NCBI RefSeq assembly: GCF_021033825.1
Contig: NZ_JAIFXZ010000004.1
Span: 1 to 64,000 of the forward strand
Length of the DNA stretch: 64,000 nt
Origin: Dietzia aurantiaca
GTDB taxonomy: Bacteria; Actinomycetota; Actinomycetes; Mycobacteriales; Mycobacteriaceae
Direction of reading: 5' to 3'
The notes under the pieces are model-generated. The model was given only the letters and a program-made list of their open reading frames with translations. It was not told the origin of the DNA and searched no databases. Below, one piece after another: positions 55,509 to 59,227 of this stretch. The position numbers and the translations under genes were made by a program. The number at the start of each line of letters is the position of its first letter. Within the stretch, counting starts at the first letter, position 1.

Positions 55509-56312
55509 TCAGAAGGGCTGTCCGGGCACGGGGGCCAGGGTGGCGAGCTCGCCACCGGTCGGCGCGGGCGCGGGAGCATCCGGTTGTGGCGCGGGATCCG
55601 CCGGTGCGGCGGGGGCCTGCGGGACGCGGTCGGCCACGGGTGCCGGTGCCGCGAGCGGCGCCGGCGGGCCGGACATCGGCGGGTACGGGACGGGCGAGAC
55701 CCCTCGGGGTGCACGGTCCTGGGGGGCCTGGGCGGGTGGTGCGTCGAACCCGTCGCGGTCCGACGACTTCGGCGGATCGGACGCTACCGGAGCAGGCTGG
55801 AGCGGCTTGATCGGCGCGCCGAGCTTCGCCTCGGGCTCGCCGACGATCTGGATGACCCCGTCCGACCCCCTGGTGAGTATCGGCGCGCTCGCGACGCCGA
55901 CCATGCCGAGCTTCTCTGCGCGTTGCGCGAGAACCTCCGCCGACCGGGCACGCTCGTTGGAGGCCTGGAGCGACTCCATCCGTTCGACCAGTTCGACGTT
56001 GGCGTCACGAGCGTTCTTGAGGTCGTAGGTATCCTGGGTGGTCTGCGCGGACAGGAGGAGGGTGCCTCCGACGCCGGCCCCGATGACGAGGAGGAGGACG
56101 ACGACGAAGGGCACTCTCGCGGCGAGTTCAGCTGCGCTGAGGCGTTCAGCGGGGACGACGACCGTGCGTCGACCGCGGACCGAGCGGGTGACCGGCTTGC
56201 GCCGCAGACCGACTGCCCGCCTCGCCGGTGCGGGCCCGTCGAGCTCAGGTCCAGCGGGTGCCGGAGCCGCGGTCCGGGTATCGGCTCCGGCCGTGTCGAT
56301 GGTGCTCGTCAT
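55509..56312 (-). CDS. FtsL-like divisome membrane protein with proline-rich tail
   Basis: A 267-aa protein: basic cytoplasmic N-terminus, one transmembrane helix (67-88), a coiled coil (about 93-134, LKNARDANVELVERMESL) and then about 130 residues of Pro/Ala-rich sequence outside the membrane. Position between rsmH and ftsI and the helix-coil layout identify it as FtsL-like, comparable to Rv2164c of M. tuberculosis. FtsL usually ends soon after the coil, so the Pro-rich tail is a lineage feature that may span the wall. The ATG overlaps the rsmH stop by 4 bp. Confidence 0.82.
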   Translation of the reverse strand: MTSTIDTAGADTRTAAPAPAGPELDGPAPARRAVGLRRKPVTRSVRGRRTVVVPAERLSAAELAARVPFVVVLLLVIGAGVGGTLLLSAQTTQDTYDLKNARDANVELVERMESLQASNERARSAEVLAQRAEKLGMVGVASAPILTRGSDGVIQIVGEPEAKLGAPIKPLQPAPVASDPPKSSDRDGFDAPPAQAPQDRAPRGVSPVPYPPMSGPPAPLAAPAPVADRVPQAPAAPADPAPQPDAPAPAPTGGELATLAPVPGQPF

Positions 56313-57331
56313 GGGATTCTCCCGTCGATTCGCCGGACGCATCGCACTCGGACCGAGGCCGAACGCGGGTTGTGATCGATTTCCGTCGGTGACGCCTTCT
56401 CCGCTCCACGGGTGACGGCTGCGAACTCCGGCCCGTGGCCCGGCAGCTCGACCGGCAGGCCCGCCGGGGTCCGGGACGCGGTCCGCGTGGACAGTTCGCG
56501 CTTGACGATCTTGTCCTCCAGCGAGTGGTAGGCCATGAACACGGCACGGCCGCCCCCGCGGAGGAGGTCGAGATACCCGGGGACGGCGTTCTCCACCGCC
56601 TCCAGCTCCGCGTTGACCTCGATCCGCAGCGCCTGGAAGACGCGCTTGCCCGGGTGTCCGCCGGTCCTACGCGCACCCTGCGGGATGGTGTCGTAGAGCA
56701 ACTCCACGAGCTCGGAACTTGTGCGTAGAGGATCAGTGTCGCGACGGCGGACGATCGCGGCGGCAATCTGACGTGCGAAGCGCTCTTCGCCGTAGACGCG
56801 GAAGATCCGCGCCAGGTCGTCACGCGGATAATCGGCCAGGATGTCGGCCGCGGTGGGCCCCGTGGTGGGATCCATCCTCATGTCGAGCGGCGCATCGACG
56901 GAGTATGCGAAGCCGCGGTCCGCCACGTCGAGCTGCATCGATGAGACCCCGAAGTCCAGTAGGATGCCGTCGATCGCCGGGCCGGCGTCATCCCTGGAAT
57001 CTGCCGGGAGTGCGGCCACCACTGAGTCGAAGTCGTCAAAACGAGCGTGCACCGGTGTGAACCGGTCACGGAAGGCGGTGAGCCGGCGGGTGGCCATCTC
57101 GAGCGCGGCCGGGTCGCGGTCGACCCCGAGCACCCGAAGGGTCTCGAACTCCGCGAGGAGGTGGGAGGTGTGTCCGCCGAGCCCGAGCGTGCCGTCCACT
57201 ATCACCGGACGGCGGCCTTCGGTTGTAGCGGTCGCGACGACGGGGCGGAAGAGTTCGATTGTCCGCTCGAGGAAGACGGGAACATGCCCTGAGCGAGCGT
57301 CGTCGCGGTCGGCATCGGGCTCTGTCGCCAT
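56309..57331 (-). CDS. rsmH: 16S rRNA (cytosine1402-N4)-methyltransferase
   Basis: A 340-aa SAM-dependent enzyme (MraW) that methylates C1402 in the ribosomal P site. It shows HVPVFLERTIEL, DGTLGLGGHTSHLL (SAM loop), DFGVSSMQLD and MAYHSLEDKIVK. The ATG at 57331 follows AGGAGGCGAG. A 171-bp leader with strong structure lies upstream. An annotated mycobacterial form has a longer N-terminus; the corresponding peptide here is in another frame. Confidence 0.95.
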   Translation of the reverse strand: MATEPDADRDDARSGHVPVFLERTIELFRPVVATATTEGRRPVIVDGTLGLGGHTSHLLAEFETLRVLGVDRDPAALEMATRRLTAFRDRFTPVHARFDDFDSVVAALPADSRDDAGPAIDGILLDFGVSSMQLDVADRGFAYSVDAPLDMRMDPTTGPTAADILADYPRDDLARIFRVYGEERFARQIAAAIVRRRDTDPLRTSSELVELLYDTIPQGARRTGGHPGKRVFQALRIEVNAELEAVENAVPGYLDLLRGGGRAVFMAYHSLEDKIVKRELSTRTASRTPAGLPVELPGHGPEFAAVTRGAEKASPTEIDHNPRSASVRVRCVRRIDGRIP

Positions 57332-57375
57332 CTCGCCTCCTCGCATCCGGAATGGGTGTGCGCTCCGGTTGTGGT

Positions 57376-57458
57376 GGAGCCCCCTGGTCCCCGTCCGGTA
57401 CCCACCTGGCGTTGGGGAAGTACGTCAGGGTGGTGCCGGGCAGGGGCCGGGGGGCTCC
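57376..57458 (-). ncRNA. Structured leader between mraZ and rsmH (mraW-motif-like)
   Basis: Outer arms GGAGCCCCC (minus strand 57458-57450) and GGGGGCTCC (57384-57376) are perfect 9-bp complements. Inside is a second hairpin (57434-57402) with near-complementary CCACCCTG and CAGGTGG arms and a loop containing ACTTCCCC, which could pair with a ribosome-binding site. Rfam lists an mraW RNA motif in this position in actinobacteria; I cannot run its model. The same bases also encode LTYFPNARWV in a frame offset from rsmH. Confidence 0.6.
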
Positions 57459-57502
57459 GTCCGTCGTGCGGTCGTTCCTCTTCTCGCGCCCTCTCCCCCG
57501 GA

Positions 57503-57979
57503 TCAGAATTCGATCCCGAGAGAGGTGCCCTCCATCTCGGAGAACACGGGCAGGTTCTCTTCGCTGTAGCGGTCCCACGCGTCGGCGTCCCAGACCTCGA
57601 GACGCTCCCCGAGACCGTTGACGACGCAGTCTTTTCCAAGACCCGCGTACTTCCGCTGACTCGTCGGGATGGAGATCCGCCCCTGCGAGTCCAACTGCTG
57701 GACTTCCGCGCCGCTCACCAGGAGCCGGAAGAACGCCATGTGCCTCTCACTGAGGTTGGCGGTCGGCCGGACCTTTCTGACCAATGCGTCGAACTCGTCT
57801 TCCGGGAAGACCGACAGCGTGTTGGTGAACCACCCACACACGACCACCCCGTCCGCCAGACCAGGCCTGAATCTGGCGGGGATCGTCAGCCGCCCCTTGT
57901 CGTCGAGTTTGGGACGGTGGGTCCCGTACCCGACAAAGGCTCGTTCGCGTCCGGAGTCGACGGGATCGGTGTCGGTCAC
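57503..57979 (-). CDS. mraZ: Transcriptional regulator MraZ
   Basis: A 158-aa protein with two tandem AbrB/MraZ DNA-binding modules: KLDDKGRLTIPARFRPGL (24-41) and QLDSQGRISIPTSQRKYAGL. MraZ forms ring oligomers, binds TGGGN repeats and represses its own division operon in several bacteria. About 10 extra residues lie at the N-terminus. The GTG at 57979 follows AGGAGGTGG and sits 41 bp from the nearest repeat of its putative operator. Confidence 0.95.
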   Translation of the reverse strand: MTDTDPVDSGRERAFVGYGTHRPKLDDKGRLTIPARFRPGLADGVVVCGWFTNTLSVFPEDEFDALVRKVRPTANLSERHMAFFRLLVSGAEVQQLDSQGRISIPTSQRKYAGLGKDCVVNGLGERLEVWDADAWDRYSEENLPVFSEMEGTSLGIEF

Positions 57980-58020
57980 CCGCCACCTCCTGGGGTTCAG
58001 GCCCTTCGATCTCCTTGCGT

Positions 58021-58076
58021 GCCCCACTGTACCCCACAATGCCCCACAAACAAGGCCTGAGCCCCACTTCGCCCCA
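58021..58076 (-). promoter_or_regulatory. MraZ operator: five TGGGGY repeats on a 10-bp grid
   Basis: On the minus strand TGGGGC starts at 58076, 58066, 58046 and 58026, and TGGGGT at 58036. Spacing is exactly 10 bp except for one empty cell at 58056. Repeats of one helical turn with TGGG cores match known MraZ boxes, so autoregulation of the dcw operon is likely. Confidence 0.8.
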
Positions 58077-58087
58077 CCGGCGGCCAT

Positions 58088-58709
58088 AACAGCAGGTCGT
58101 GCGTGTGGTTTTCTCTTAGATCCTCAGCGGCGCCCCGCCGCGACCACAGGAGTTATTGCCACGATCGCAGCTTGGAAGTGACGAATGAGACTGAAGCGAT
58201 CAAGAGCGGCCGTTGGGGCAGCAACGGTGGGAGGAAGTGGGGAGACGGGGCGGGCACACTGGAACCCCAGGTCAGAGCTCTCTCGGTTACCCGTAGCCCC
58301 GGTCGACCCAAGCAGGCGTGCTTTAGCGCACCACGGGTGCCGTCATCCGACCCGGCTGGCGACTGCCAGGGCCCAATCCGCCAGCCGACTCCGCCTGCGA
58401 GGTGCGGTCACAACTGCGCGACCACTCCTCCCGATACCGCGATGACCTGCGGAACCAGACGAGAACACGCACGCGTGATGCGCCACCACTGTTCGCTTGC
58501 AGCACGTGCGTCGTGATGTGAAGTGATGCGGGTATCCGTCCGGTGGGCCACGGTGGGGGCGGCCACCACCCGGGGACGGGCTCCGCCCGGTGGCGATAAG
58601 TGGGGCGATCCCCGGCGGTGTGGGGACGCGTGGGGCGCCAGCCTCTGCTGCGAACCGGGAGCGGCGTCCTCCTACGCCGCCACGACCAGTAGTGGGGTTC
58701 GGCAACAGA
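58088..58709. other. Gene-free region between mraZ and the DUF3040 gene
   Basis: Open frames here have no ribosome-binding sites and irregular third positions, so I call no gene. The stretch is rich in TGGGN on the plus strand (58214, 58228, 58238, 58544, 58554, 58601, 58621, 58631, 58693). The mraZ promoter should lie at its left end. A small RNA cannot be excluded. Confidence 0.5.
58544..58636 (+). promoter_or_regulatory. Additional TGGGN clusters with 10-bp spacing
   Basis: TGGGC at 58544 and TGGGG at 58554 are 10 bp apart; TGGGGC at 58601, TGGGGA at 58621 and TGGGGC at 58631 keep 10-bp steps with one empty cell, echoing the mraZ operator but in the opposite orientation. No plus-strand gene follows, so function is unclear. 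Confidence 0.4.
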
Positions 58710-58745
58710 AAGGAGGGGTGAGCGCGACTGCGCTCACCCCTCCTT
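58710..58745 (-). terminator. Strong hairpin terminator of the DUF3040 gene
   Basis: A perfect 16-bp stem (AAGGAGGGGTGAGCGC and its complement) with loop GACT on the plus strand. On the minus strand it is followed by TTCTGTT, and lies 17 bp after the DUF3040 stop. It should insulate mraZ from the upstream gene. Confidence 0.8.
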
Positions 58746-58762
58746 GGAAGATATTCGGACGA

Positions 58763-59182
58763 CTAGGGGCCCTGCTCGAAACGACGGCGGAAACGGTCCT
58801 CCATGCGAGTGGAGTACGACCGGCCGTCCCCCCCGCCGGAGGACGAAGCCCGGCCGCCACCCGGCATGCGGGGGCCGCCCGACTTCTTCGGACCGGCGGC
58901 GGCCGGGCCCGGCCTGGAACGAAGCGCGAGAACGCCAGCGGCGAACATCACGAGAAAACCGACGAGGCTGAGGACCGGGAACCCTCCCGGCTTGAAATCG
59001 AGTGCCAGACCGCCGATGAGGAGGGCCACACCGAGGATGCCGAGTCCCACGACGAGTCCGGTGGGACGACGAACGCCGGTCGCGCCGGTCTTGCGAACGG
59101 ACGACGCGAACTTCGGGTCGTCGGCGTAGAGCGCGCTCTCAATCTCCTTGAGCATGCGCTGCTCGTGCTCGGACAGGGGCAC
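58763..59182 (-). CDS. DUF3040 membrane protein
   Basis: A 139-aa protein with the DUF3040 start VPLSEHEQRMLKEIE, two transmembrane helices (about residues 43-60 and 69-86) and a Gly/Arg-rich cytoplasmic tail. The start is placed at the GTG (59182) because AAGGAGG precedes it; an ATG at 59197 would put that ribosome-binding site inside the gene. DUF3040 proteins are common beside mraZ in actinobacteria (Rv2169c). Function unknown. Confidence 0.85.
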   Translation of the reverse strand: MPLSEHEQRMLKEIESALYADDPKFASSVRKTGATGVRRPTGLVVGLGILGVALLIGGLALDFKPGGFPVLSLVGFLVMFAAGVLALRSRPGPAAAGPKKSGGPRMPGGGRASSSGGGDGRSYSTRMEDRFRRRFEQGP

Positions 59183-59227
59183 TTCGACCTCCTTCATGTG
59201 CTCGCGTAGACGAGCGCGGCCGGCTAA

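Follow-up and report, generated by a model that had tools for sequence, protein, structure and literature searches.

The mraW RNA motif between mraZ and rsmH of Dietzia aurantiaca and its in-frame and doubled forms in relatives

An ordinary copy of the mraW RNA motif

The segment between mraZ and rsmH in Dietzia aurantiaca is an ordinary copy of the known mraW RNA motif (Rfam RF01746). It occupies positions 57365–57465 on the minus strand of the window, i.e., the whole 64,000-nt stretch of contig NZ_JAIFXZ010000004.1 that was analyzed. On the evidence of sequence comparison, both the membership of this copy in the family and its structure on the RNA strand are established. We consider it slightly more probable than the opposite (about 55%) that the mraW RNA works at the RNA level as a cis element of the mraZ–rsmH region, with a trans factor at its exposed loop, and that it lies in frame with rsmH in Mycobacterium.

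The element is a long interrupted hairpin, delimited by cmscan, the predicted fold, and covariation. In the cmscan search, the mraW model matched the window with 67 bits against a cut-off of 50 (E 3.9e-12, model positions 1–107). It was the only Rfam match above its cut-off in the window, and the whole Dietzia genome contained only one mraW match at E ≤ 0.001. The 101-nt minus strand folded at −57.1 kcal/mol (z = −4.33), a value equaled by none of 200 dinucleotide shuffles. A preliminary description, made from the letters of the sequence, had claimed two 9-bp arms enclosing a hairpin loop. The arms at 57450–57458 (the 5′ outer arm) and 57376–57384 (the 3′ outer arm) are indeed exact reverse complements on the minus strand, and the loop between them is present. 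This apical loop, ACUUCCCC, lies at 57414–57421 on the minus strand, where the letters are ACTTCCCC, and its CUUCCCC columns were invariant in all 43 aligned sequences.

Both flanking genes lie on the minus strand. The frame at 56309–57346 matched Pfam Methyltransf_5 with 328 bits, and rsmH (mraW) likely runs from the ATG at 57329–57331 to give a gene at 56309–57331; this start was chosen by its ribosome-binding site, the likely GAGGAGG at 57336–57342, which was the best-scoring site for the rsmH start. With rsmH beginning at this ATG, the hairpin lies entirely inside the mraZ–rsmH gap. The frame at 57503–58087 matched Pfam MraZ with 103 bits, and mraZ was placed at 57503–57979, with a likely GTG start at 57977–57979, also by its ribosome-binding site. 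Further on, Pfam identified a PBP-type transpeptidase. The 12 closest named relatives of the window's RsmH were all from Dietzia, with 83–93% identity.

Two other features of the surroundings were recorded. Just 5′ of mraZ, at 58022–58077 on the minus strand, there are three matches to GTGGGG-N4-GTGGGG, repeats that presumably resemble MraZ operator repeats; the whole window contains four such matches against 0.05 expected, with the fourth at 58620–58635 on the plus strand. In addition, a long G+C-rich inverted repeat (AAGGAGGGGTGAGCGC...GCGCTCACCCCTCCTT) at 58710–58745 lies directly behind the minus-strand frame 58763–59197 and is possibly its terminator.

Conservation and RNA structure across relatives

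For comparison, 224 loci of relatives were gathered and 214 were counted, after L050 (without an RsmH match), L051–L058 (antisense reads of loci already in the set), and L224 (the same place as L139) had been dropped. The 214 loci include the window's own locus (L001) and count some genomes twice (L045/L075 and L047/L127, whose RsmH sequences are identical or almost so, and L033/L067). A hairpin was defined by TTCCC in a fixed neighborhood and ≥ 6 pairs, which is a loose criterion. Within the family, 247 of 251 genomes matched the mraW model at E ≤ 0.001, and 197 were over the cut-off; within the class, 119 of 158 matched at E ≤ 0.01, and 41 were over the cut-off. Among the 19 loci fetched first from the class search, which were the top scorers and included four from the window's own family, rsmH was present in all 19. 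Some genomes also gave second mraW matches better than E 0.001; in the genomes that were re-examined, these proved to be antisense reads of the same palindrome and were rejected.

When 80 loci were instead gathered through the RsmH protein, every one had a TTCCC hairpin ≤ 480 nt upstream of the conserved rsmH proline codon, and the loop was CUUCCCC in 78 and UUUCCCC in two. Across the full set, the loop was CUUCCCC in 212 of 214 loci, a count to be read with the fact that the criterion itself demanded TTCCC. Wherever both genes could be located, the mraW RNA was between mraZ and rsmH.

The preliminary description had suspected a conserved RNA motif here, and had advised running the Rfam mraW model and looking for compensatory change in the stems. 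Both lines of evidence bore out the suspicion: beside the RF01746 match given above, the 43 aligned sequences (window included) showed strong compensatory change, with two-sided change in 16 of 25 stem pairs and 95.4% of cells able to pair. The covariation score was 0.390 against 0.175 for shuffled alignments, and none of 500 shuffles scored as high. In the same alignment, stem pairs on the transcribed strand included 74 G.U against 10 A.C, and because G.U far exceeds A.C, the sense strand is the structured strand. The stem is interrupted by conserved mismatches: at column pair 48–65 of the apical stem, A.C occurred in 23 of 43 sequences, with G-C in 13, G-U in 5, and A-U in 2, and at column pair 21–91, C.A or A.C occurred in 40 of 43. 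The apical loop was the most conserved part of the RNA, and its predicted probability of being unpaired was about 1 in all 44 group representatives, in a fold prediction that leaves pseudoknots outside the model. As a separate observation, locus L031 (genus g7) carries at about 1546 an mraW-like hairpin with loop GCUUCCCC and an uninterrupted helix of 38 pairs, far more perfect than those of its relatives.

The out-of-frame peptide in Dietzia

The preliminary description had also noted that the same DNA encodes a peptide out of frame with rsmH and had proposed a short regulatory upstream frame. The first of these points was correct, in that the open frame carrying TTLTYFPNARWVPD (57066–57578, minus strand) is one base out of phase with rsmH. 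In the window this frame is open, a GTG stands 159 nt ahead of the loop codon, and a conserved regulatory peptide TTLTYFPNARWVPD could be read from it; however, we find such a product in Dietzia hardly credible. No Pfam match was obtained, and neither the frame nor its start is preserved across the genus. In 10 of 15 Dietzia loci, the 450 nt scanned ahead of the rsmH match contained no in-frame ATG, GTG, or TTG for the peptide, and the phase from loop to rsmH took two values within Dietzia. The frame was therefore judged not to be a gene. Moreover, the letters of TTLTYFPNARWVPD follow from the RNA consensus, and on this comparison the Dietzia peptide is most simply a by-product, the RNA consensus read as codons. 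Among the 128 loci outside genus g29 (see below), loop phases 1/2/0 were found in 45/44/39 loci, and in 92 of the 128 the rsmH frame was interrupted by a stop between the two genes. The mraW RNA thus appears to be untranslated in Dietzia and in most of the relatives examined.

The RNA inside the rsmH frame in a Mycobacterium-like genus

In genus g29, the mraW RNA lies inside the rsmH frame. In one g29 genome, the PBP encoded two genes after rsmH matched PbpB of Mycobacterium tuberculosis (6kgh) with 1101.7 bits, and from this match we infer that g29 is Mycobacterium. All 78 g29 genomes searched carried an mraW RNA over the cut-off. The 86 g29 rows analyzed were all found by the RNA search and so give no gauge of the frequency of the RNA, for which the 80 RsmH-gathered loci can serve. 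In a tree of 78 RsmH rows, eight of them from g29, the genus formed one clade (100/100), with the bootstrap unsettled.

The loop was in phase with rsmH in 86 of 86 g29 loci, and the frame was open through the hairpin. Between the end of mraZ and rsmH, rsmH-frame stops occurred in 0 of 85 loci, against 85 of 85 and 56 of 85 for the other two frames. The distance from loop to rsmH took 32 values, all multiples of three, with at least 59 changes on a FastTree phylogeny of RsmH, and the distance from the mraZ stop to the loop took 13 values in one phase, with at least 23 changes on the RsmH tree. An rsmH-frame ATG preceded the mraZ end in 85 of 86 loci; the exception was L140, whose mraZ end was miscalled and which was excluded from the spacing and Asp counts. 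This ATG stands 26 nt ahead of where mraZ ends in 83 of the 85 loci, and the remaining two have it 23 nt ahead. It arises from a mraZ Asp codon, which was GAT in all 80 rows with Asp there; at five other conserved mraZ Asp columns of g29, GAT accounted for 0/82, 31/83, 9/83, 18/83, and 5/83. Synonymous variation is low over the whole mraZ end, however: the top codon reached 0.94–1.0 at codons 11–13, 15, and 16 before the stop, and another Asp was GAC in 82 of 82. Codon usage is for this reason a weaker argument that the ATG is selected, and conservation in this region may concern something else as well. The last 20 mraZ codons in g29 (e.g., in L147), where synonymous variation is unusually low ahead of the overlapping ATG, also carry the palindrome GAGAACTTCTC.

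Several g29 loci read ..LAYFPNARF.. in the rsmH frame. The preliminary description had mentioned such a peptide for the annotated N-terminus of M. tuberculosis RsmH, and the same kind of peptide was found in the rsmH frame of these Mycobacterium-like genomes. It had further advised testing whether change in the peptide frame is confined to synonymous sites. In 18 disjoint g29 pairs, the leader frame showed no third-position excess that would indicate amino-acid constraint. Substitutions at codon positions 1/2/3 numbered 9/23/17 before the hairpin, 37/35/26 within it, and 136/136/133 in the linker, and the codon changes in the linker comprised 40 synonymous and 205 non-synonymous ones in the same pairs. 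For the linker outside g29, nine pairs gave 41/47/38. Selection on the peptide in g29 was rejected for this absence of a third-position excess. The idea of an RNA motif misread as protein in mycobacteria is not supported, since the frame is kept in its phase (86/86), its freedom from stops (0/85), and its ATG, although the amino acids are unconstrained.

In 68 of 86 g29 loci there remains an internal start whose ribosome-binding site reaches at least −8 kcal/mol in strength; 10 of 86 had only a site weaker than −6, with four changes on the RsmH tree. The out-of-frame control for internal starts was clean in g29 (3/172), Rhodococcus (1/26), and Dietzia (0/24), and was not clean in Nocardia (18/40). 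Since a strong internal start is kept in 68 of the 86 loci, the long RsmH product may be minor, and most g29 loci likely have two rsmH starts. For an N-terminal extension of RsmH in g29, an open frame, frame-keeping spacing, and a conserved start codon were all found. Because the frame is kept in phase, without stops, and with its ATG, translation through the mraW RNA is probable in this genus, as judged from comparison of the loci. Only tentatively, and with the odds somewhat against it, do we suggest that the mraW RNA of Mycobacterium has a dual use, as a structured regulatory RNA and as a translated part of a long RsmH whose synthesis begins within mraZ through translational coupling. The ribosome arriving from mraZ would then open the hairpin, so that the element would sense the translation of mraZ; two forms of RsmH would be made, a long one read through the RNA and a short one begun at the internal start, and the frame, not the peptide, would be selected.

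Doubled hairpins in Rhodococcus and its kin

In 13 loci of Rhodococcus, Rhodococcoides, and other genera, two CUUCCCC hairpins 37–41 nt apart were found on the usual base stem (L045–L048, L075, L092, L094, L097, L100, L104, L107, L125, and L127, some of which represent the same organism twice). Fifteen two-hairpin loci are reached when two more are included: L102, where the first of the pair probably matches within mraZ by chance, and L049, which has two hairpins and a different outer part. In the doubled form, both loops are kept and the stems differ by paired changes, and all three of the loci that were folded gave two heads on one stem. A single hairpin is present in further Rhodococcus loci (L077, L082, L083, L085, and L090). 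Because the loop hairpin has been doubled in Rhodococcus, the CUUCCCC hairpin is the likely unit of recognition. Separately, about 2.4 kb upstream of rsmH in the Rhodococcus loci L082, L083, L085, L094, and L107, there is a strong hairpin with loop GAGGGAAGC on the rsmH strand; this loop is nearly complementary to the mraW loop.

Proposed pairing between the loop and the rsmH ribosome-binding site

The preliminary description had proposed that the loop binds the rsmH ribosome-binding site, so that CUUCCCC would act as an anti-ribosome-binding-site and shut off translation. The pairing was compared with that of permuted loops (21 permutations) in 44 group representatives, with mraZ sites as a control; some groups overlap (Dietzia, g1, and the window's own genome), so the 44 are not independent genera. 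The rsmH start at each locus was taken as the one with the best ribosome-binding site, a choice that favors G-rich sites and should therefore have helped the pairing hypothesis. Even so, the pairing of CUUCCCC with rsmH sites ranked 17 of 21 over the 44 representatives, worse than its rank of 8 of 21 on the mraZ control. The loop thus pairs no better than permuted loops do, and loop–site pairing was rejected as a general function.

Among the seven larger groups, pairing of the loop beat the median permutation in four, g29, Nocardia, Amycolatopsis, and Pseudonocardia, where CUUCCCC ranked 4–7 of 21; however, the mraZ control did the same there, with ranks of 5–9. In Dietzia, Rhodococcus, and Corynebacterium, the ranks were 18, 20, and 18. 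In 21 of 86 g29 loci, the internal start that was selected is preceded by GGGGAGG, a sequence also noted for M. tuberculosis in the part of PMC3526491 available; outside g29, 6 of 128 loci have either this sequence or GGGGAAG. Against this, the loop is unchanged where the site does not fit it, e.g., TAGGAG in group g20. The fold prediction gave zero loop-to-site pairing, which is uninformative because the program excludes pseudoknots. Of the predicted pairing of the ribosome-binding site, the median share that goes to the mraW stem was 0.002 over the 44 representatives. In the window copy, the share of site pairing that goes to the mraW region was 0.40, so that the site could be occluded locally there, and in three groups this share was 0.59–0.90. 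In Amycolatopsis, four of seven loci (L129, L133, L134, and L136) have a second, local UUCCCC 31–37 nt before the rsmH start, which faces a GGGGAAG-type site; it is predicted to pair with the site and thereby to occlude it directly, in a hairpin separate from the mraW RNA. Taking both sides together, we regard it as improbable that the mraW loop itself works by pairing with the rsmH site.

Published transcripts and literature

The accessible portion of PMC3890552 lists the mraW motif as observed in Corynebacterium glutamicum, with a transcript 5′ end inside the motif that is listed as a transcription start, and in the accessible portion of PMC5784534, the transcript mapped for mraW in C. diphtheriae begins downstream of the motif. 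Given these 5′ ends inside or downstream of the motif, some of the rsmH mRNA in both corynebacteria does not carry the element. For M. tuberculosis, the available text of PMC3526491 reports a Northern-positive small RNA with bands of 60 and 30 nt within annotated Rv2165c; these bands may correspond to the mraW hairpin. The same text argues that the annotated start of Rv2165c is wrong, as the part homologous to the BCG protein starts 53 residues further in, at a GTG that follows GGGGAGG. The g29 frame, as far as the comparison of loci can tell, would speak against discarding the upstream rsmH frame in the genus as a whole.

As far as the excerpts available extend, the motif originates from Weinberg et al. 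(2010; PMC2864571), where the main text has only a table row for it; it is counted among the core mycobacterial ncRNAs in PMC9569102 and merely listed in PMC8600241, PMC4046766, and PMC3890534; and a paper on the Dietzia mraZ promoter (PMC9602371) does not name mraW. The name 6C likewise appears in the available parts of PMC9569102 and PMC8600241. Neither mraW nor rsmH occurs in the main text of PMC4633059, PMC9597629, or PMC10641625. Within the literature covered, which included few subscription journals and mostly partial texts, there was no statement that the mraW RNA lies in the rsmH frame and no mention of the doubling in Rhodococcus, and the published passages on the mraW RNA that were available named no trans factor, ligand, or regulatory effect.

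Proposed function and alternative explanations

Rfam types RF01746 as Cis-reg, and the likeliest function would be that of a post-transcriptional cis element read by a trans factor at the exposed loop. The long hairpin with its conserved mismatches would present the near-invariant single-stranded CUUCCCC loop, a factor acting in trans would recognize it, and this recognition may tune the translation or stability of rsmH and of the division genes behind it. Such a factor would most likely be a protein that binds RNA, and the KH-domain proteins KhpA/KhpB and RsmH itself are conceivable first candidates. In Mycobacterium, the ATG overlapping the mraZ end would start a frame running through the hairpin into rsmH; ribosomes from this ATG would melt the hairpin, so that whether it is folded should be governed by translation that comes in from mraZ. 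The distance from the loop to the conserved rsmH proline codon varied from 69 to 315 nt across loci, and therefore no single geometry of control fits.

The main rival to reading by a trans factor is cleavage of the transcript, in which the element is a site of mRNA processing or stability, a nuclease cuts the long helix between mraZ and rsmH, and the ratio of the two proteins is thereby set. The position of the element between the two genes, in the loci where both were located, would suit such a site, as would the mapped C. glutamicum 5′ end inside the motif and the 60- and 30-nt RNAs from annotated Rv2165c, as given in the accessible portions of those papers. However, the C. glutamicum end was recorded as a transcription start in the text available, and the near-invariance of the single-stranded loop, together with its duplication, suggests that the loop is recognized and that the helix is not simply being cut; we therefore hold cleavage to be unlikely, though worth serious consideration. 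The transcript starts in or behind the element in the two corynebacteria, as far as those partial texts show, could also point to action at the DNA level, as a palindromic transcription-factor site or part of an rsmH promoter. This is disfavored by the excess of G.U over A.C on the sense strand, and the loop is the best-conserved portion, so that we consider action on the DNA very unlikely. Recognition of the RNA loop by a trans factor thus stays our preferred reading.

Comparison with known systems

The variant forms lie in the relatives, i.e., the in-frame RNA of what is presumably Mycobacterium and the two-headed RNA of Rhodococcus, and the window copy is ordinary. The M. tuberculosis rsmH start has been called possibly erroneous (PMC3526491, in the text available), and our comparison suggests that the longer frame is kept in the genus. 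There, a structured RNA and a reading frame would share the same bases, with only the frame, and not the peptide, under selection. The natural doubling in Rhodococcus may offer a bait for a partner with possible control over the beginning of the cluster of division genes.

Compared with the mraW RNA motif RF01746 of Actinomycetales, the window copy is the same in sequence, structure, strand, and place upstream of mraW/rsmH, and it does not differ in kind. Departures from that description occur in the presumed Mycobacterium, where the RNA lies inside the rsmH frame, and in Rhodococcus and its kin, which carry two loop hairpins on one base stem. Translationally coupled leaders and leader-peptide attenuators are further systems for comparison. 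As in these, a ribosome from an upstream start would refold the leader in Mycobacterium; unlike in them, the Mycobacterium frame has no stop before rsmH, its amino acids are unconstrained, and it is fused to the gene that it may control. The actinobacterial 6C sRNA has C-rich hairpin loops and acts in trans. The mraW element similarly exposes C-rich hairpin loops, two of them side by side in Rhodococcus; unlike the trans-acting 6C, it lies beside rsmH, is present as a single copy in the window's genome, and gave a negative result overall in the pairing test.
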